Source: an uncultured Ilumatobacter sp. (GTDB lineage: Bacteria; Actinomycetota; Acidimicrobiia; Acidimicrobiales; Ilumatobacteraceae). From it: a stretch of DNA of 38,876 bases. Where the stretch lies: positions 1 to 38,876 of the forward strand of contig CALIOL010000191.1 in NCBI GenBank assembly GCA_938044705.1. The letters are read 5' to 3'. Below are positions 13,146 to 20,592 of this stretch, one piece after another; position 1 is the first letter of the stretch; every line of letters starts with the position of its first letter. Made by a program: the position numbers and the translations under genes. The notes under the pieces are model-generated. The model did no database searches, was not told the origin of the DNA, and saw only the letters and a program-made list of their open reading frames with translations.

Positions 13146-13982
13146 TCACGAGTGGATCGGTCCCGATGAGTCCTTCAAGCTGGGGACGCCTTTGCCGGTG
13201 CGCGCTGCGATGATCTCGGCGCAGATACTCACAGCGGTCTCCTCGGGCGTCCGAGCGCCCAGATCGAGCCCGATCGGCGACATCAGGCGATCGAGCCCCG
13301 CTTGGTCCACGCCGACCTCGGCAAGTCGTTGCATCCGCTTGTCATGGGTCTTGCGACTGCCCATCACGCCGATGTAGCCGACGCGAGTCGCCAACGCTCC
13401 CTGCACCGCTGGCACGTCGAACTTCGGGTCGTGAGTGAGGATGCAGACAGCGTCACGCGGACCCAACTCGCCGCCCAGTTCGTCGAAGATCGGGGTCGGC
13501 CAGGTGACCCGGACTGCGTCGGCCATCGGGAACCGGCGCTTGGTGGCAAACACCTCGCGGGCATCGCACACGGTGACGCGGTAGCCGAGCACTTTGGCGA
13601 CACGAGCGAGCGCAGCGGTGAAGTCGACCGCCCCGAAGATCCACATCTGCGGAGGTGGTGCGTGCGACTCGACGAAGACTCGAATCGTCGGCTGGTCGAC
13701 CAGGTCCTCAGGCGTGGTCTGCCCCTCGGGTCCATAGGAACGCACGCCAGATCGAGCAGCTTCCAACTCGGCGATGGCATCGCGCGCGACGACGCGATCC
13801 AGCTCGGGGTGGCCCAGCGAGCCGAGGGGCTCCGCCCCGTCGGTCGTGACGAGCAGTTTGGCGCCGACGCTGATGTCTCCGATCGCACCTTCGATCACGG
13901 TTGCCAGAGCAACCGGTTCTTCGGTGCGCAAGAGTTCGGCATATCGATCGAACACCGGCGAATCGGGAGGCGTCGAGCTCAC
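13146..13982 (-). CDS. XdhC/CoxF family maturation factor (Rossmann-domain form)
   Basis: A 278-residue XdhC-family protein. XdhC-type factors bind the molybdenum cofactor, help sulfurate it and insert it into xanthine-oxidase-type enzymes. The N-terminal part (about 10-90) resembles the XdhC N domain (VALATVIEGAIGDISVGAKLL, then GSLGHPELDRVVARDA) but lacks the usual GGCVE cysteine. The C-terminal Rossmann domain has MWIFGAVDFTAALARVAKVLG, VCDAREVFAT, TWP, ILTHDPKFDVPAVQGAL, YIGVMGSRKTHDKR and the end LDLGARTPEETAVSICAEII. The initiating GTG at 13982 overlaps the stop of the preceding XdhC-N gene (GTGA), so the two are made together. It is last in the coxD-coxE-xdhC run. Confidence 0.92.
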   Translation of the reverse strand: MSSTPPDSPVFDRYAELLRTEEPVALATVIEGAIGDISVGAKLLVTTDGAEPLGSLGHPELDRVVARDAIAELEAARSGVRSYGPEGQTTPEDLVDQPTIRVFVESHAPPPQMWIFGAVDFTAALARVAKVLGYRVTVCDAREVFATKRRFPMADAVRVTWPTPIFDELGGELGPRDAVCILTHDPKFDVPAVQGALATRVGYIGVMGSRKTHDKRMQRLAEVGVDQAGLDRLMSPIGLDLGARTPEETAVSICAEIIAARTGKGVPSLKDSSGPIHS

Positions 13983-14296
13983 CAGGCCAGTTCCTCGATG
14001 AAGAGATGGATCGTTCCACCGCACGTCAACCCGACAGCGAACGCCTCGTCGTCGGAGTAGCCGAACGTGACGACACGAGGCTCCGTCGAGCCGTCGAGGA
14101 TCGACAGGGCTTCGCCGACCACGGCGCCTTCGACGCATCCGCCGCTCACGCTGCCAGCGACCTCACCGGACTCGGTCACCGCCATGGCGGCGCCGGGCAG
14201 TCGCGGACCCGACCCTTCGATGTCGACGACTCGCGCAACGGCGATTCGCTCACCGGCGCGCTGCCATCGGTCGATGTCGTTCAACAGTTCCTTCAT
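13979..14296 (-). CDS. Short XdhC/CoxI N-domain protein
   Basis: A 105-residue protein consisting of the XdhC/CoxI N-terminal domain (PF02625-type) alone. It has VARVVDIEGSGPRLPGAAMA, a central GSVSGGCVEGAVVGEAL with the conserved Cys54, and a C-terminal FAVGLTCGGTIHLFIE with Cys92. The ATG at 14296 has a GGGGA ribosome-like site. It is not a broken fragment of the next gene: that gene has its own, diverged copy of this domain and its own start in a GTGA overlap. The short protein may supply the cysteine-bearing half of a two-protein maturation factor; this is inference. CoxE ends 52 bases upstream on the same strand. Confidence 0.88.
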   Translation of the reverse strand: MKELLNDIDRWQRAGERIAVARVVDIEGSGPRLPGAAMAVTESGEVAGSVSGGCVEGAVVGEALSILDGSTEPRVVTFGYSDDEAFAVGLTCGGTIHLFIEELAW

Positions 14297-14348
14297 CGTG
14301 TCCCCATTCTGTCGAGCGCGGTCGTCGCCGCCTCGCACCGTTCACCAC

Positions 14349-15509
14349 TCATTCGCTGATCACGCGGCACAACTCTTCCATCGCCGAGACCGAATGGCCC
14401 TCGACGAACGCATCGAGGTGGGGGAGCGCAGCTGCCATTCCCCGTGCCAACGGTGCATACCCAGGGGTGACCTTCAGCGGGTTCACCCACACCAGCCGAT
14501 GCGTGACGCGATGGAGGCGTTCCATCTGCGCATCCAGAACCTCGGGATCGCCGCGGTCCCAGCCGTCGGAGAGCACGACCACGATCGAGTTACGCGCCAG
14601 CCCGCGAACGCCCCACTCGTCGTTGAACTCCCGCAGCCCGTCACCGAGCCGAGTGCCGCCACTCCAGTCGATGACCCGCTCGGACGCCGCGGCGAGTGCG
14701 ACGTCGGGGTCGCGGCTGTCGAGCTCGCGCGTGATGCGTGTGAGTCGCGTGCCCAAGGCGAACGCTTCGACCTTCTGGCGGCCGGCCACCGCCGCGTGGA
14801 CGAACCGCAGCAGGGCTCGCGCATAAGGCTCCATCGAGCCGCTGACGTCGAGCAGCAGCACCAAGCGCCGCAACCGGGTGCGTGGCTGGCGGTGGTGTCG
14901 CTCGATCGGTTCGCCGCCCGAGCGGATCGCCGCCTGCATCGTGCGCCTGATATCGGGGCGGGTGGTCTGGCGTGCCGAGGGCCCGAGGCGCAGCGAGGCC
15001 CGCGGTGACCCCACGAGCCGCAGGTTCGACATCAACTCCTGAGCGAGCACGAGCTCGTCGGAGCTGTACTGAGCGAAATCCTTGTGGCGAAGCACTTCGG
15101 TGGTCGAGAAGCGCAGCTCGATGGTCGGGTCGTCGTTCGCGTCGGCGGTCTCCGGACCGTCGTCGCTCTCGTCGTCTTCGGCATCGACAGCAATGGTGAT
15201 CGAGAGCGGGTCGTCCTCTTCGGCGTCTTCGCCCGTCGAGCGGCGATGTTCGAAGAACACCTTGAACGCTCGGTCGAACACCTCGATGTCTTCGGGGCGA
15301 CGAGCCAGCGTTGCGCGACCGGACCAGTAGACGCCGTCGCGATCGTCCAGACCGACAGCGCAGAGTGCTTCGGCAAACGTGTGCGTGCAGCTCGTGGGCA
15401 CCTTCATGCCGGCACCTCGCAGCACACGGGTGAACGCCACAGCGATTTCAGCCGAGTCGCTGCGTTGCGGTGTCGACCGGTCAGCAGTCGATGGAGGCGC
15501 CCAATTCAT
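14349..15509 (-). CDS. coxE: CoxE-like von Willebrand factor A protein
   Basis: A 386-residue CoxE-family VWA protein, which works with the CoxD ATPase in building the copper/molybdenum centre of CO dehydrogenase or relatives. The N-terminal 90 residues are helical (AEIAVAFTRVLRGAGMKV, then YWSGRATLARRPEDIEVFDR). An acidic, variable linker follows (about 92-128). The VWA domain starts near 213 and has the metal-ion site DVSGSM (221-226), a Thr in SGGTRLGDG and Asp in LSDGWDRGDP, so all five usual metal ligands appear present. The ATG at 15509 has GGAG eight bases upstream. CoxD ends 19 bases before this start, and the XdhC pair follows, giving the common order coxD-coxE-xdhC. Confidence 0.94.
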   Translation of the reverse strand: MNWAPPSTADRSTPQRSDSAEIAVAFTRVLRGAGMKVPTSCTHTFAEALCAVGLDDRDGVYWSGRATLARRPEDIEVFDRAFKVFFEHRRSTGEDAEEDDPLSITIAVDAEDDESDDGPETADANDDPTIELRFSTTEVLRHKDFAQYSSDELVLAQELMSNLRLVGSPRASLRLGPSARQTTRPDIRRTMQAAIRSGGEPIERHHRQPRTRLRRLVLLLDVSGSMEPYARALLRFVHAAVAGRQKVEAFALGTRLTRITRELDSRDPDVALAAASERVIDWSGGTRLGDGLREFNDEWGVRGLARNSIVVVLSDGWDRGDPEVLDAQMERLHRVTHRLVWVNPLKVTPGYAPLARGMAAALPHLDAFVEGHSVSAMEELCRVISE

Positions 15510-15528
15510 CGGGTTGCTCCCACACGAG

Positions 15529-16446
15529 TCACCCGTGCATCAGCCCCTTCTCGAAGGCTTGTTTCACGACCGCGGCGACGCCGTGCTGGTCGACTCGCTG
15601 ATGGTCTTCTCGATACTTGAGCACTGTGCCGAGCGTGTTCGTCACCAGCGTGTCGTCGAGCTTGGTTGCGCCGAGCTTGCCGAGCGCCGCGGCCCAGTCG
15701 ATGGTCTCGGCGACCCCGGGTGGCTTGTAGAGATTGAGGTCGCGCATGGCCTCAACGGCGGCGGCGACCTGACGGGCGAGTCCGTCGTCGACGCCGGGGA
15801 CCCGCAGCTTCACGATTTCCACTTCGCGCTCGAACCCAGGATGCTCGACCCAGTGATACAGGCATCGACGCTTCAGAGCGTCGTGCACGTCGCGGGTTCG
15901 GTTCGACGTGAGGACGACGAGTGGCGGCCGCTCGGCTCGGAACACGCCGACCTCGGGCACGGTGATCTGGAAGTCGGAGAGCACCTCGAGCAGGTACGCC
16001 TCGAACTCGTCGTCGGCTCGGTCGATCTCGTCGATGAGCAAGACAGGCGGCGGCCCTTCGACCGGCGAAATCGCTCGCAGCAGTGCGCGCTTCACCATGA
16101 ACCGCTCGCCGTAGAGCTGAGCTTCGAGGTCGTCCGACGTCATCGACGCCGATTCCCCGGTCGCTTCGGTAGCGCGCAGATGCAACAGCTGGCGCGAGTA
16201 GTCCCAGTCGTACACCGCCTGGGCCACGTCGATGCCCTCGTAGCACTGGAGGCGGATCAGTTCGCCGCCGGTCATCGAAGCGAGCGCCTTGGCCAATTCG
16301 GTCTTGCCAACGCCGGCTTCGCCTTCGAGTAGCAACGGGCGCTGCAACGTCATCGCCAGGAACACGGCGGTGGAGATGCCCTCGTCGGGGAGGTAGCCCT
16401 GCGCTGCCAAGGAGGTGCTGACGGTGTTCACATCGCTCGACGTCAC
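15529..16446 (-). CDS. coxD: CoxD-like MoxR AAA+ ATPase
   Basis: A 305-residue AAA+ ATPase of the MoxR/CoxD type. Walker A is GEAGVGKT (42-49), Walker B VLLIDEIDRAD (135-145), and the sensor-1 segment is VLTSNRTRD. The features GIDVAQAVYDWDYSRQLLHLR and LYGERFMVKRALLRAI are characteristic of CoxD rather than generic MoxR. CoxD unfolds or remodels the apo-hydroxylase so that its metal cluster can be built, with CoxE as partner; that gene follows immediately. The start is a GTG at 16446 with no obvious ribosome site, facing the divergent secreted propeller gene across 123 bases. The large, middle and small hydroxylase subunits are not in this window. Confidence 0.94.
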   Translation of the reverse strand: MTSSDVNTVSTSLAAQGYLPDEGISTAVFLAMTLQRPLLLEGEAGVGKTELAKALASMTGGELIRLQCYEGIDVAQAVYDWDYSRQLLHLRATEATGESASMTSDDLEAQLYGERFMVKRALLRAISPVEGPPPVLLIDEIDRADDEFEAYLLEVLSDFQITVPEVGVFRAERPPLVVLTSNRTRDVHDALKRRCLYHWVEHPGFEREVEIVKLRVPGVDDGLARQVAAAVEAMRDLNLYKPPGVAETIDWAAALGKLGATKLDDTLVTNTLGTVLKYREDHQRVDQHGVAAVVKQAFEKGLMHG

Positions 16447-16569
16447 CGTGCCGAGACTACAGACCCGATGGGGCGCGCTCCCTGTGCAGCGATGAGCCGT
16501 GTCCCCCGAACCGGGTCGTGCGAACGTGTCACCTTCGCCTACTCAGAGCAACGAGCAGCGGGAGCGCGC

Positions 16570-17973
16570 ATGAGCGAACACGACCGACACCGACGAACCA
16601 CCGCAGACCGAGCGAGAGACGTCGCGCTCGGCGTGACCTCCGTCGTGGTGCTGACGATGGTCGTCATCCCCGCCGCCGCGGATGCGGCGCGATCCGTCGA
16701 GGCCTCCGGCCGCATCGACTCCGCAGCCGTTGTTTCAGCACCAGCGGAACGGGTCGACCCGCCGACCACCCCCACCGGCTCGACCCCGTCGGCCACCTTG
16801 CCGCCACCCGACGTGCCGACCGACCTGGTGACGGGGTTCGACGCCACACCGCCGTCGCCAACGTGGACTCGGCCTGCGCTCTTCGTTTCGTCTCCCGATC
16901 CTGCCTATGGCTCACTGGTTCGCCGAATGACCTCGGCAGACGGGACCCGGTTCGACCGCAACACCTACAGCCGCCGTCAGGCCGAAAACGCGGACGGCAC
17001 CATGTTCTTCACGTATCACGGCGACGCCGTGTACCGGGTGTACGACCGAGCGTCAGGCGACCTCATCCGCATTCTCGACATCCACCCCGACTCCGAACCG
17101 CAGTGGCATCCGACCGACCCAGACGCGATCAGACACATCGCGGGCTCGAACTCCTACGTCGGCGACCTCACGTACCTCGAGACCAGCGTCGGGAGCGGCC
17201 AACAGCGAACGATTGCTGACTTGACGACGCGAGTGCAGGCGGTGTTCCCGGCAGCGCTGTATCTCGCCGACAAGGCCGAGGGTTCGCCCAGCGCTGACGG
17301 GAACCGACTCGCATGGATGGTCCACGACGGCAACGAAGATGCCATCGGCATCGTGAGCTACGACCTCGCCGACGACGAGATCTTGGGGACGGCGACGCTC
17401 GACCCGACCGCAGGTCGTCTGGACTGGGTGTCTGCGTCGCCGACCGGTGAGTACGTGATGGCGGGCTACGTCGATGCGACCGTCGTGCTCGACGCTGACC
17501 TCACGCGGCCACGTCGGATCAACGACAAGGCCGACCACAGCGACATCGCACTCACCGCCGCTGGCCGCGACGCATACGTGTACATCGACTTCAGCGCCGG
17601 TGCGGACGGTGGTTGGCTGATGTCGGTCGAGCTCGACACACTCGCTCGAACGAGACTGTTCGACCTCTACGACGACGCGAACACGAGCGTCCACGTGTCG
17701 GGCAAGGGGTACGACCGGCCCGGCTGGGTCGTGGTCTCCACGTACAACTGCAAGGTCCCCGGCGCCTGGTCGTGCGAAAAGGTGTTCGCGGTGGAGTTGG
17801 CGACGGGCTTGATCGTGCATCTGGCCCACACGTACAACTGTGGCGACAACTACTGGACCGAGACGCATGCTGTCGTGAACCGATCCTTCACTCGCGTGTT
17901 CTTCAACTCTGATGCGGGGTCGTGCGGCATCGACGCTGAGGTCTACGAGATCGAGGTGCCGCCGCTCCCGTGA
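16570..17973 (+). CDS. Secreted beta-propeller-like protein, paralogue of the anti-sigma sensor domain
   Basis: A 467-residue exported or N-terminally anchored protein. The ATG at 16570 has GGGAG seven bases upstream; an in-frame extension to 16468 is not supported. Residues 1-25 are charged, then a hydrophobic stretch (ALGVTSVVVLTMVVIPAAADAA) forms a signal peptide or anchor. A Pro/Thr-rich linker leads to strand-rich repeats typical of a propeller (QAENADGTMFFTYHGDAVYR, YDRASGDLIRILDI, QWHPTDPDAIRHI). The last 90 residues hold four Cys (YNCKVPGAWSCEK, YNCGDNYW, GSCGID) that may form disulfides. Repeated local matches to the anti-sigma-like protein at 18008 (NADG, the SG..I..LD strand, W..TDP, LAH, VF.S..G..ID near the end) indicate common ancestry. 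No enzymatic motif is seen. Confidence 0.85.
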   Translation: MSEHDRHRRTTADRARDVALGVTSVVVLTMVVIPAAADAARSVEASGRIDSAAVVSAPAERVDPPTTPTGSTPSATLPPPDVPTDLVTGFDATPPSPTWTRPALFVSSPDPAYGSLVRRMTSADGTRFDRNTYSRRQAENADGTMFFTYHGDAVYRVYDRASGDLIRILDIHPDSEPQWHPTDPDAIRHIAGSNSYVGDLTYLETSVGSGQQRTIADLTTRVQAVFPAALYLADKAEGSPSADGNRLAWMVHDGNEDAIGIVSYDLADDEILGTATLDPTAGRLDWVSASPTGEYVMAGYVDATVVLDADLTRPRRINDKADHSDIALTAAGRDAYVYIDFSAGADGGWLMSVELDTLARTRLFDLYDDANTSVHVSGKGYDRPGWVVVSTYNCKVPGAWSCEKVFAVELATGLIVHLAHTYNCGDNYWTETHAVVNRSFTRVFFNSDAGSCGIDAEVYEIEVPPLP

Positions 17974-18007
17974 CGCCAGCCGGGCAGGGGAGAGCCGGTG
18001 CGGGACC

Positions 18008-19477
18008 TCAGTCGGGGAGCGAGATCAGGTACGTGTCGACGGCGTCGGCACCGAAGTTCGAACTGAACACCACGCTCGATCCGTCGGGAGCGATGGCGAC
18101 GTACGGGGTCGACCAATTGCCGAATTCGTCAGCGTCGAACATCCGGTGATGGGCGAGCCGGAACGTCGTGTCGTTCGCCAGGTCGATCACCAGTACCTCA
18201 TCGTCGAGCGTGCCCGGCTCGCTTGCTTCGGGAGAGGTGATGATCGCGACGAGCGTCGAGTCGGCGCCGCCTGCCACGCCGATGGTGGTGCCCGTCGGTG
18301 GGTACGGGTATCCGGTCGCTTGGCCGGTGATGACCTGCTGCTCTCCCGTGTCGAGGTCGATCTTGACGGCCGTGCCGATCAGGTCGCCGTCGGCGTCATC
18401 GAACACGGTGGCCACGAGGACATCTCGACCCTCGTCGTCGAGTGCGAGCGCCGCTGCGGACACCTCGACATCGACGACGACGCCGGTCGGTTCGAGGCCG
18501 GCGTCGAGGACGATGATCTCGTCGTCGTCGACGAGCACGAATCCGCGTCCTGAGGACATCGTCAGAGGAGTGTCGACGGTGCCGTTCGTCGACGTCAGCG
18601 CAGGCCGCCGTGCGGTGACGGTGCGCGTCGCCGTGTCGTACGCGATCCAGTCGACGGTGTCACCGGTGCGACACGCGATCGCCATCAGCGAGTTTCGCCC
18701 TGCCGATGCACCGGCGACGTCGCCGAAGTCGGCTGCGTCGCACTCGCCGGGTATCGGATGCACGGTTGTGTCACCGCCCACTTCCACCTCGACGAACGCC
18801 GCAAGCGATGAGTCCAGGTATCGAAGCAGGTTCGGGTCGGTTGCGTCCCAGGCGATGTCTTCGATGTCCGTCGCTGAAGACAGATCCAGTGTGTCGACGA
18901 TCTCACCGGAGGTGGGGTCGACGATGATGTGGCCCGGTGCGACGACGCCGGTGCGGTACAGCAAGAGCAAGCTGCCGTCGGCGTTGTACACCTGTGACGT
19001 CGACGACGCTGGTGCGATCACCGCGCCGGTTTCGGCGTCGGAGAGCTTCGTGACGGTCGTTCCGAAGTCTGGTTCGGTGAACGCGTCACCACGAGCGACG
19101 GGTGCGATCGGCGTGAGCGGTCGTGGTTCGAGGTCACTCACGAGCGGAGCGATCGGGTCGGCCGGTGGAAGCGGCGTCGCGGCAGACGTCGAAGGTGATG
19201 TCGCCGGCACGGTGGAGCCTGTCGTGCTGGCCGGCGGCGTGCTGGCCGGCTCGGTGAGCACGATGTCGTCGGCTGGGCGGCGAGCGACAAGGAATGCGCC
19301 GACGGCGAAGACGGCCACCAGCACCGCCGCAGCGACAAGCGGGATCGCCGAGCGGTCGCGATTCCGTGCCTGCTTAGCGGCGGGACGGCCGTCGACGAGA
19401 TGGGGTACCTCGATTCCATCGACCTCGCGGCGCAGCGATTCGGCCGCTGCTGACAGGCGGCGATCCAGCTCGTCCAT
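18008..19477 (-). CDS. Membrane anti-sigma-like protein with extracytoplasmic propeller domain
   Basis: A 489-residue single-pass membrane protein directly after an ECF sigma gene. The cytoplasmic part is short (about 1-44, LDRRLSAAAESLRREVDGIE). It is followed by one membrane helix (IPLVAAAVLVAVFAVGAFLVA) and a Pro/Ala/Ser/Thr linker encoded by near-identical 13-base repeats at 19223-19235 and 19238-19250. The remaining 360 residues are strand-rich with propeller-like repeats (QVYNADGSLLLLY, DPTSGEIVDTLDLS, IAWDATDPNLLRYL, VVFSSNFGADAVDTYLISL). The position matches an anti-sigma factor; a zinc-type HxxxCxxC motif is absent. The start is either GTG 19480 (GTGA overlap) or ATG 19477 (TGATG), both coupled to the sigma stop. 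The sensor part is paralogous to the convergent secreted protein. Confidence 0.85.
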   Translation of the reverse strand: MDELDRRLSAAAESLRREVDGIEVPHLVDGRPAAKQARNRDRSAIPLVAAAVLVAVFAVGAFLVARRPADDIVLTEPASTPPASTTGSTVPATSPSTSAATPLPPADPIAPLVSDLEPRPLTPIAPVARGDAFTEPDFGTTVTKLSDAETGAVIAPASSTSQVYNADGSLLLLYRTGVVAPGHIIVDPTSGEIVDTLDLSSATDIEDIAWDATDPNLLRYLDSSLAAFVEVEVGGDTTVHPIPGECDAADFGDVAGASAGRNSLMAIACRTGDTVDWIAYDTATRTVTARRPALTSTNGTVDTPLTMSSGRGFVLVDDDEIIVLDAGLEPTGVVVDVEVSAAALALDDEGRDVLVATVFDDADGDLIGTAVKIDLDTGEQQVITGQATGYPYPPTGTTIGVAGGADSTLVAIITSPEASEPGTLDDEVLVIDLANDTTFRLAHHRMFDADEFGNWSTPYVAIAPDGSSVVFSSNFGADAVDTYLISLPD

Positions 19478-20031
19478 CACGCCTGCCCTTCCAGCTGGGT
19501 ACGAAGTGTCGAGCGGCCGCGAGTCAGGTGTGTCTTGACGGACTCGGTGCCGATCTCGAGCACCCGCGCGATTTCTTCGTTGGCGAGGTCATCCCAGTAC
19601 CGCAGCGCGAGAACCTGGGCTTGACGTCGGGGGAGTGCTCGAACGAGATCCCACATCTCCCGATCGGATACGGGAATGTCGAGGTCGGGCGAAGGGCGTG
19701 AGCGAAGCCGCACCAACAGCTTCGCCTCGGTCGTCCGTCGCCGCCCTCTCGACGTGGCCGAGTTGGCGAGCACGCGCCGAGTCCATGCGAGTGGGTCGTC
19801 GTAGGAGCTGAGGCGGTTCCAGTTGTCGTGAACTTTGACGAACGCCTCTTGAACGAGTTCCTCGGCGACTCCCTTGTCTCCGCACAACACGATCCCGAGG
19901 CCGACCAGCGTCCGGTAGTGGGCCCGATAGAAGGTGTCGAAGTCGCTGCCGGCGGGGTCGTTCAAGGGCGCGACGGCAGTGGGTTGCCCAACGCTTTGGT
20001 CAGAGGTGGTGGGAGATCGACGAATCGTCAT
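19477..20031 (-). CDS. ECF-type RNA polymerase sigma factor
   Basis: A 184-residue extracytoplasmic-function sigma factor. Region 2 (about 30-95) has FDTFYRAHYRTLVGLGIVLC, then AEELVQEAFVKVHDNW and LAWTRRVLANSA. Region 4 (about 123-180) has LPRRQAQVLALRYWDDLANEEIARVLEIGTESVKTHL in one helix-turn-helix unit (written here across 37 residues: LPRRQAQVLA through SVKTHL). The spacing of regions 2 and 4 and the length match SigE/SigM-like ECFs. The ATG at 20031 follows an in-frame GTG at 20043 that could add four residues; neither has a strong ribosome site. The stop overlaps the anti-sigma-like gene, the standard arrangement. Target promoters cannot be assigned. Confidence 0.95.
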   Translation of the reverse strand: MTIRRSPTTSDQSVGQPTAVAPLNDPAGSDFDTFYRAHYRTLVGLGIVLCGDKGVAEELVQEAFVKVHDNWNRLSSYDDPLAWTRRVLANSATSRGRRRTTEAKLLVRLRSRPSPDLDIPVSDREMWDLVRALPRRQAQVLALRYWDDLANEEIARVLEIGTESVKTHLTRGRSTLRTQLEGQA

Positions 20032-20109
20032 CGCAGCGGACACACGATGACACGTTCGAGCGGTCTCTCGCGGGGGACGCGCTGCTGAAGTGAATTGCGA
20101 ACTGCTCGG

Positions 20110-20592
20110 TCAGCCTGCGCCGCGAGCTTCGATGATCTCGGTGACGACGTTGTAGGGCCAACCGTCGGGAAGATCTGTCGGCAGGTCGGGAAGCGGGAGG
20201 ATCGATGACCGTTCCTCACCCATTTCGACGTAACCGAAGTCCTCGCGAGCGGCTTCGCGGATCCCGTCGGCGGTTTCGAGACGGTTCGTCTCGGCTTCGA
20301 GCTCCGCATTCACGCGCTGCAGTTCGTCGAGTTGGGCTTGGCGTTGATCGATGTCCACGGACTGGTCTTGCCACGTGGGGATCGGAAGCACGAAGACGGC
20401 AAAGGCGATCGCGCCGACGATGCCCAGCGCAAAGATGCCCATGAATGCTGCGACGCGAGGCCGGCGCGAAATCCGTTTGTCCACCGGGATCGGCCGCGTG
20501 AAGTCGCCGAGCCGAGAACGACCTTCGTCAGCGGCCTTGACGCCCGCAGGGCGCGGGATCGAGGTGGTTTTCGAACGGGGCACAGCAGTCAT
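20110..20592 (-). CDS. FtsB/DivIC-family septum protein
   Basis: A 160-residue bitopic membrane protein of the FtsB/DivIC septum-formation-initiator family, part of the FtsQLB complex that activates septal wall synthesis. The N-terminal 47 residues are basic and cytoplasmic. A membrane helix spans about 48-70 (AAFMGIFALGIVGAIAFAVF). A coiled coil covers about 78-107 (DQRQAQLDELQRVNAELEAE), then the family signature IREAAREDFGYVEMGE (111-126). The ATG at 20592 is preferred over 20643, which would place extra residues in the intergenic hairpin region. In many actinobacteria this gene lies between eno and DUF501; here it follows a SulP transporter, and DUF501 is elsewhere. Confidence 0.9.
   Translation of the reverse strand: MTAVPRSKTTSIPRPAGVKAADEGRSRLGDFTRPIPVDKRISRRPRVAAFMGIFALGIVGAIAFAVFVLPIPTWQDQSVDIDQRQAQLDELQRVNAELEAETNRLETADGIREAAREDFGYVEMGEERSSILPLPDLPTDLPDGWPYNVVTEIIEARGAG

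Follow-up and report, generated by a model that had tools for sequence, protein, structure and literature searches.

The window considered here is a 38,876-nucleotide stretch that makes up one contig (C191; CALIOL010000191.1) of an uncultured Ilumatobacter sp. assembly (3.88 Mb, 82% complete). It carries a trio of genes for an extracytoplasmic function (ECF) sigma factor, an anti-sigma-like membrane protein with a beta-propeller outside the cell, and a secreted protein with a propeller of its own. Judging from sequence comparisons and predicted structures, we think it probable that this is an ECF sigma/membrane anti-sigma system in which the sensor is a degenerate, pseudoenzyme copy of the secreted propeller, whose gene the sigma factor switches on. 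A promoter motif is shared by the sigma and secreted-protein genes, and a set of polar residues is kept in free copies of the propeller and lost in sensors; the secreted protein would therefore be the output of the system, and the sensor its degenerate relative. That the sigma factor governs both its own operon and the gene for the secreted protein seems very likely, and we hold the pseudoenzyme reading of the sensor with reasonable confidence, while leaning only slightly towards a glycan as the ligand.

As long as no signal is present, the sensor protein would keep the sigma factor at the membrane through its short cytoplasmic end. The ligand is most likely a glycan or oligosaccharide akin to what the free copy acts on, and its contact with the sensor propeller would set the sigma factor free, perhaps by regulated proteolysis. 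The freed sigma factor would then read the motif TGTCCC-N19-CGTGT, whose presence and positions are observed, before its own operon and the secreted gene. In related genomes it would also read sites before pairs of DUF1800 and DUF1501 genes and before genes for exported carbohydrate-enzyme-like proteins. The secreted propeller is probably a glycan-active enzyme, with part of its polar set coinciding with the position of the metal site in oligogalacturonate lyase.

Two homologous propellers

The secreted and anti-sigma-like proteins are related well beyond chance. BLASTP aligns them with an E value of 9e-15 (24% over 441 aa), and the propeller parts alone score 54.3 bits, whereas the best of 300 shuffles reaches 23.1 and the reversed sequence 16.5. 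Comparison of the two propeller profiles gives a probability of 99.8 (E 3.5e-29). AlphaFold models, for which 14 relatives of the secreted protein and 11 of the anti-sigma-like one were aligned, are both beta-propellers, with mean pLDDT of 78.7 and 77.7 and higher values in the cores. Each independently has as its best match in the PDB an oligogalacturonate lyase (OGL) of family PL22 (Z 27.2 and 26.8; best unrelated fold, Z 21.3 and 21.6). The sequence-only reading had proposed that both proteins carry the same kind of propeller, with local motifs shared in the same order. The alignments, the models and the common PDB match agree with this; the motifs lie in register in both the sequence and the profile alignments, and structure prediction did not give the unrelated folds that would have spoken against it. 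No family for either propeller was found in Pfam, NCBIfam or PHROGs, and a PDB sequence search with the propeller profile gave chance-level matches only. The viral collection held no relative, and the plasmid collection one weak, unannotated match.

Residues kept in free copies and lost in sensors

We compared 25 free copies with 25 sensor-borne copies, the latter including one sigma fusion and two kinase fusions (L-numbers below denote loci, and G-numbers genomes, of relatives). The polar set conserved in free copies is N131, Y133, R135, Q178, E237, H323, H375, K379, Y428, E431 and H433. This putative active-site set is kept in all 25 free copies and is partly or mostly lost in 24 of the 25 sensor-borne ones. 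More broadly, 106 columns are at least 95% conserved among the free copies, each of which keeps 96-100% of them; all sensors except L014 have lost many, roughly one fifth at the low end (L011, L086) and more than four fifths at the high end. Nine sensors (L011, L019, L075, L076, L086, L088, L089 and the two kinases) have a propeller of the secreted type. In all nine, H323, H433, Y133 and Y428 are lost while cysteines and core residues are kept, and E237, N131, K379, E431, Q178, R135 and H375 are each lost in seven or eight.

Because the 18 columns most often lost in sensors were picked for that loss, the test lies in the contrast with distant free homologues and not in the loss itself. Two distant free homologues, L091 and L092, keep about 60% of the 106 columns, as do the worst of the secreted-type sensors, yet still keep 13 of the 18. 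At N131, Y133, Y428, E431 and H433 they keep 10 of 10 cells, against 3 of 45 in the secreted-type sensors. Sensor propellers stand in at least two places of the trees, the deep branches of which are weak, so the loss probably happened more than once.

Linkage of the genes in relatives

Two peptide patterns, run against 84,980 species genomes, picked out 14 sequences related to the secreted protein, of which 13 come from the Acidimicrobiales and the other from Salinibacterium; among the 14, L014 proved to be an anti-sigma protein. Among 397 genomes of the order, with the best four candidates per genome scored and many assemblies incomplete, the secreted-type and sensor-type profiles match the same 22 genomes. 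Since the two profiles cross-react, hits were assigned by their N-terminus and neighbours. On this basis 20 genomes have a free propeller together with a sigma/sensor pair or fusion, G605 has the free propeller only, G634 the pair only, and 375 have neither (Fisher p 2e-31, kinship uncorrected). The nearest relative with the trio is G088 (locus L010), another uncultured Ilumatobacter.

The secreted gene lies 3' of the anti-sigma gene in seven loci, 5' of the sigma gene in four, and convergent or divergent in two each, with overlapping genes at L013 and L018. Different contigs carry the free gene and the sigma/sensor pair in five genomes (L015/L094, L016/L095, L080/L088, L082/L089, L087/L093), and another four have the pair or fusion away from the free gene (L126-L129). 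The Salinibacterium genome (SWN167; L020) has a free secreted gene, and no sensor was found in it. The trio is thus a linked unit in many related genomes, where secreted homologues do adjoin sigma/anti-sigma pairs, as the sequence-only reading required.

The propeller also occurs in fusions. L129:3550-5376 (+) joins an ECF sigma factor, a transmembrane segment and a propeller in one 608-aa frame, while L090:4310-6841 (-) and L130:3809-6217 (-) encode transmembrane Ser/Thr kinases, recognised by Pfam for L090 and by sequence reading for L130, with a degenerate propeller outside the cell. The propeller would therefore serve as a sensor module for two classes of signalling protein.

A common promoter motif

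The motif TGTCCC-N19-CGTGT recurs upstream of sigma genes and of those free-propeller genes that are transcribed separately. Its core, GTCCC-N19-CGTG, is present in 16 of 29 such upstream regions, against at most four in shuffles. A motif score of at least 10 of 11 is reached by 16 of 20 separately transcribed free genes and by one of seven lying 3' of an anti-sigma gene, which would be co-transcribed. Sigma genes 3' of a free gene (L011, L075, L076) are without the motif. It is also absent before the free genes of Salinibacterium and G605, where no anti-sigma gene was found. Exact sites number 42 in the 27 genomes with these genes, compared with two for a reversed control, and occur in 20 of those 27 genomes as against five of 60 family members without the genes. 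The candidate promoter before the secreted gene of the window is the sole exact TGTCCCCC-N17-CGTGT in its own 3.88-Mb assembly. With up to two mismatches allowed, the motif is not significant across the window (three matches, 1.86 expected), and support for the putative promoters there is from position and from relatives.

At L010, L016, L075-L077, L080, L091 and L092 the motif stands exactly 37 nt before the start codon of the free gene, which lies about 7 nt downstream of the -10 element. This spacing, found in many relatives, suggests leaderless transcripts, and mRNAs from these sites are probably leaderless. The sigma gene of G088 (L009) has no clear motif. At L181 (G038:C1:4466000-4484000), three copies of the motif lie near an unrelated ECF sigma gene and a peptide-type ABC transporter.

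Further sites point to a wider putative regulon in relatives. Ten of 20 extra sites, which stem from related genomes and are hence not independent, precede DUF1800 genes (Pfam matches for all ten), and close behind each comes a gene with DUF1501-like sequence and a Tat-like start (L162, L164, L167, L168, L171-L175, L180). The DUF1501 assignment is by Pfam for a gene beside the free gene in L022 and by sequence likeness for the others. Such pairs have been seen beside bacterial chitin synthases, with function unknown (PMC5122149). Exported proteins encoded after the motif include RGI_lyase-type proteins (L163 and L166 above the cut-off, L169 just below), a GH16 protein (L170, above the cut-off) and an FG-GAP protein (L178), and further ones with weak GDSL, Polysacc_lyase and Zn-PLC matches.

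Relation to oligogalacturonate lyases

The fold of both propellers is thus closest to that of the PL22 lyases, for which we compared the PDB sequences 3pe7 and 3c5m. In five alignments, Q350, H353 and H355 of 3pe7 pair with Y428, E431 and H433 of the secreted protein, and Y37 pairs with Y133; other positions are unstable. We take Q350, H353 and H355 to be manganese-binding residues of the PL22 enzyme, and H287 to be a further metal ligand. This ligand set is not reproduced in the secreted protein, which has Y428 for Q350 and E431 for H353, with H433 on H355 and position 287 not reliably aligned. The two also differ in location, the secreted propeller being exported while OGL is a cytoplasmic enzyme. 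PF14583, the PL22 family, matches neither propeller at E values up to 1, and hhalign of the propeller profile against the two PL22 chains is not significant. A hand mapping of E237 to H242 and of D325 to H287 was dropped, since the alignments did not bear it out. Matches to PF14583 in the Actinomycetota were also set aside as PL22 candidates, those inspected being PD40/TolB-like by eye.

Points against the proposal and alternative explanations

Several observations weigh against a degenerate sensor that governs its secreted relative. The anti-sigma-like protein of the window has no anti-sigma domain recognised by Pfam. The sensor L014 (L014:614-2083, +) keeps the whole polar set, and the search that was run found no free copy there. 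The link to PL22 consists of the fold plus no more than three to four residues. The motif may also be read by other ECF paralogues, as the arrangement in G038 suggests. Finally, the promoter motif is missing before all three DUF1800 genes that were found in the genome to which the window belongs, so that only the trio is visibly in the regulon there.

With regard to the first of these points, the cytoplasmic part of about 46 aa, with one predicted helix and no Pfam match, does not resemble a class I anti-sigma domain (ASDI), which is a four-helix cytoplasmic domain of about 100 aa with a recognised profile. Cytoplasmic anti-sigma domains shorter than 50 aa have been treated as possible class II domains (PMC7406223). 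The short N-terminus, class II in size, may act as an anti-sigma segment; what is seen is the adjacency of the two genes, the transmembrane topology, an N-terminal pattern common to 22 relatives and the one sigma fusion.

A product-sensing relay, in which the sensor binds oligosaccharide that the secreted enzyme has cut from a polymer, is a form of the same model that we regard as possible at rather low probability. It would explain why sensors diverged in the pocket, the same region of which is indeed altered in them, and other exported carbohydrate-enzyme-like proteins in the putative regulon fit it as well; sequence does not separate it from direct sensing of the polymer.

Somewhat less likely is that both propellers bind peptides or another non-glycan ligand of the envelope and resemble PL22 in fold alone. 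Beta-propellers bind many ligands, neither PF14583 nor the two PL22 chains match in sequence, and the DUF1800/DUF1501 and Zn-PLC-like part of the regulon has no proven glycan role. However, for each model independently the PL22 match exceeds every other listed fold by about 5 Z units, Y428, E431 and H433 fall repeatedly on the presumed metal-site positions, and RGI_lyase-type and GH16 domains are among the proteins encoded after the motif.

The sequence-only reading had the linked trio right, and it went on to suggest that the secreted copy competes with, binds to or is cleaved with the sensor. Such a decoy, damping signalling after induction by binding the sensor or its ligand, would account for the likeness of the two propellers and for a regulon promoter on the secreted gene, as expected of a feedback element, but we consider it improbable. 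A polar set kept in free copies and lost in sensors is less suggestive of mimicry than of a biochemical activity in its own right. In some genomes, moreover, the secreted gene is remote from the sigma locus or present in several free copies, and Salinibacterium has it where no sensor was found.

Comparison with known systems

The closest known design to the degenerate-sensor arrangement proposed here is that of SigI6-RsgI6 in Clostridium thermocellum, which the trio resembles in its working without being a member. There the GH10-type sensor has very low activity and is 57% identical to Xyn10D, SigI6 recognises the Xyn10D promoter, and the sigma factor is autoregulated (PMC4711584). The statement in the sequence-only reading that no system of this design had been described was thus too strong. 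There, and on the present proposal in the trio too, the extracellular module of a membrane anti-sigma protein is a nearly inactive relative of an enzyme under control of the sigma factor. For the trio, homology of the sensor to the presumed sigma target and a common promoter motif are seen, and the sigma factor itself may recognise that motif. Unlike SigI6-RsgI6, the trio has an ECF sigma factor and not SigI, a beta-propeller as sensor and no RsgI_N match in the Pfam search; its free homologue is next door in many genomes.

In SigV-RsiV of Bacillus subtilis, a membrane anti-sigma protein with an extracellular ligand-binding domain controls an ECF sigma factor, and RsiV binds lysozyme (PMC4183432). 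The trio would share with it an ECF sigma factor under a membrane anti-sigma protein with an extracellular ligand-binding domain. To our knowledge, SigV-RsiV has no secreted homologue of its sensor as an output. ECF57 sigma factors carry C-terminal WD40-like repeats and so likewise couple a sigma factor to a propeller-type domain; the passages on them in the source mention no secreted paralogue (PMC8999054). In the present system a distinct membrane anti-sigma protein usually carries the propeller, and fusion to the sigma factor is seen only in L129. Among the papers listed by searches of open-access literature for ECF or anti-sigma systems, none described an ECF system with a PL22-like sensor, and we know of no such description.

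Genes and features of the window

The genes, strands and coordinates given for the trio in the sequence-only reading all held, as did the identification of the sigma gene, which encodes a small protein of 188 aa with Pfam matches above the cut-off to sigma-70 regions 2 and 4 (r2 36.3 bits, r4_2 49 bits) and, as expected of an ECF sigma factor, no long region 3. It falls below SigE-fam_strep TIGR02983 (132.2 bits against a curated cut-off of 141.55). The start of the anti-sigma gene overlaps the stop of the sigma gene, and the secreted-propeller gene is convergent to this pair. Signal-peptide cleavage of the secreted protein might, at a guess, occur near AAADA-ARS. A scan of 16400-20200 found neither a sigma-70 promoter nor a convincing terminator.

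Table 1. Features of the trio and its putative promoters, in window coordinates
Feature	Position	Strand	Remarks
Putative ECF-type promoter TGTCCCCC-N17-CGTGT, secreted-propeller gene	16500..16529	+	exact match to consensus
Secreted beta-propeller protein, 467 aa	16570..17973	+	oligogalacturonate-lyase-like fold; no Pfam family
Predicted Sec signal peptide of secreted protein (likely)	16570..16686	+	hydrophobic segment residues 19-33; model helix 11-30
Propeller domain of secreted protein, residues 99-467	16864..17970	+	carries polar set conserved among free copies
Anti-sigma-like membrane protein with extracytoplasmic propeller, 489 aa	18008..19477	-	adjoins sigma gene in relatives too
Sensor propeller, residues ~125-489	18011..19105	-	lacks polar set conserved in free copies
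Transmembrane segment of anti-sigma-like protein, residues 47-65	19283..19339	-	hydrophobic segment and model
Short cytoplasmic part, ~46 aa, putative sigma-binding segment	19340..19477	-	predicted helix 2-20
ECF sigma factor, 188 aa	19477..20043	-	Sigma70_r2 5e-9, Sigma70_r4_2 5e-13
Putative ECF-type promoter CGTCCCCC-N17-CGTGT, sigma/anti-sigma operon	20050..20079	-	one mismatch to consensus

Genes for XdhC-like, VWA-type and MoxR-type ATPase proteins, named by sequence reading, adjoin the trio both in the window (13146-16446) and in G088. An extra 265-aa gene of G088, sulfotransferase-like by eye (L009:8312-9109, +), lies between its FtsB-like and sigma genes.

Implications

Some environmental Actinomycetota, as far as sequence comparison can tell, appear to use as their sensor a worn-out, membrane-anchored version of a sugar-enzyme-like protein whose intact copy they secrete, and through it to switch on that copy and other exported proteins. 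It is a more tentative suggestion that a new exported family of PL22-like glycan enzymes repeatedly became degenerate sensors, as anti-sigma protein, sigma fusion and Ser/Thr kinase, for its own regulation, and that the regulon offers a first functional handle on DUF1800-DUF1501. If the proposal is true, bacteria build sensors from worn-out copies of the enzyme being regulated outside Clostridium as well, and with another class of sigma factor. The sharp promoter makes for a testable regulon, and the unexplained DUF1800-DUF1501 pair would then come under a defined signal.

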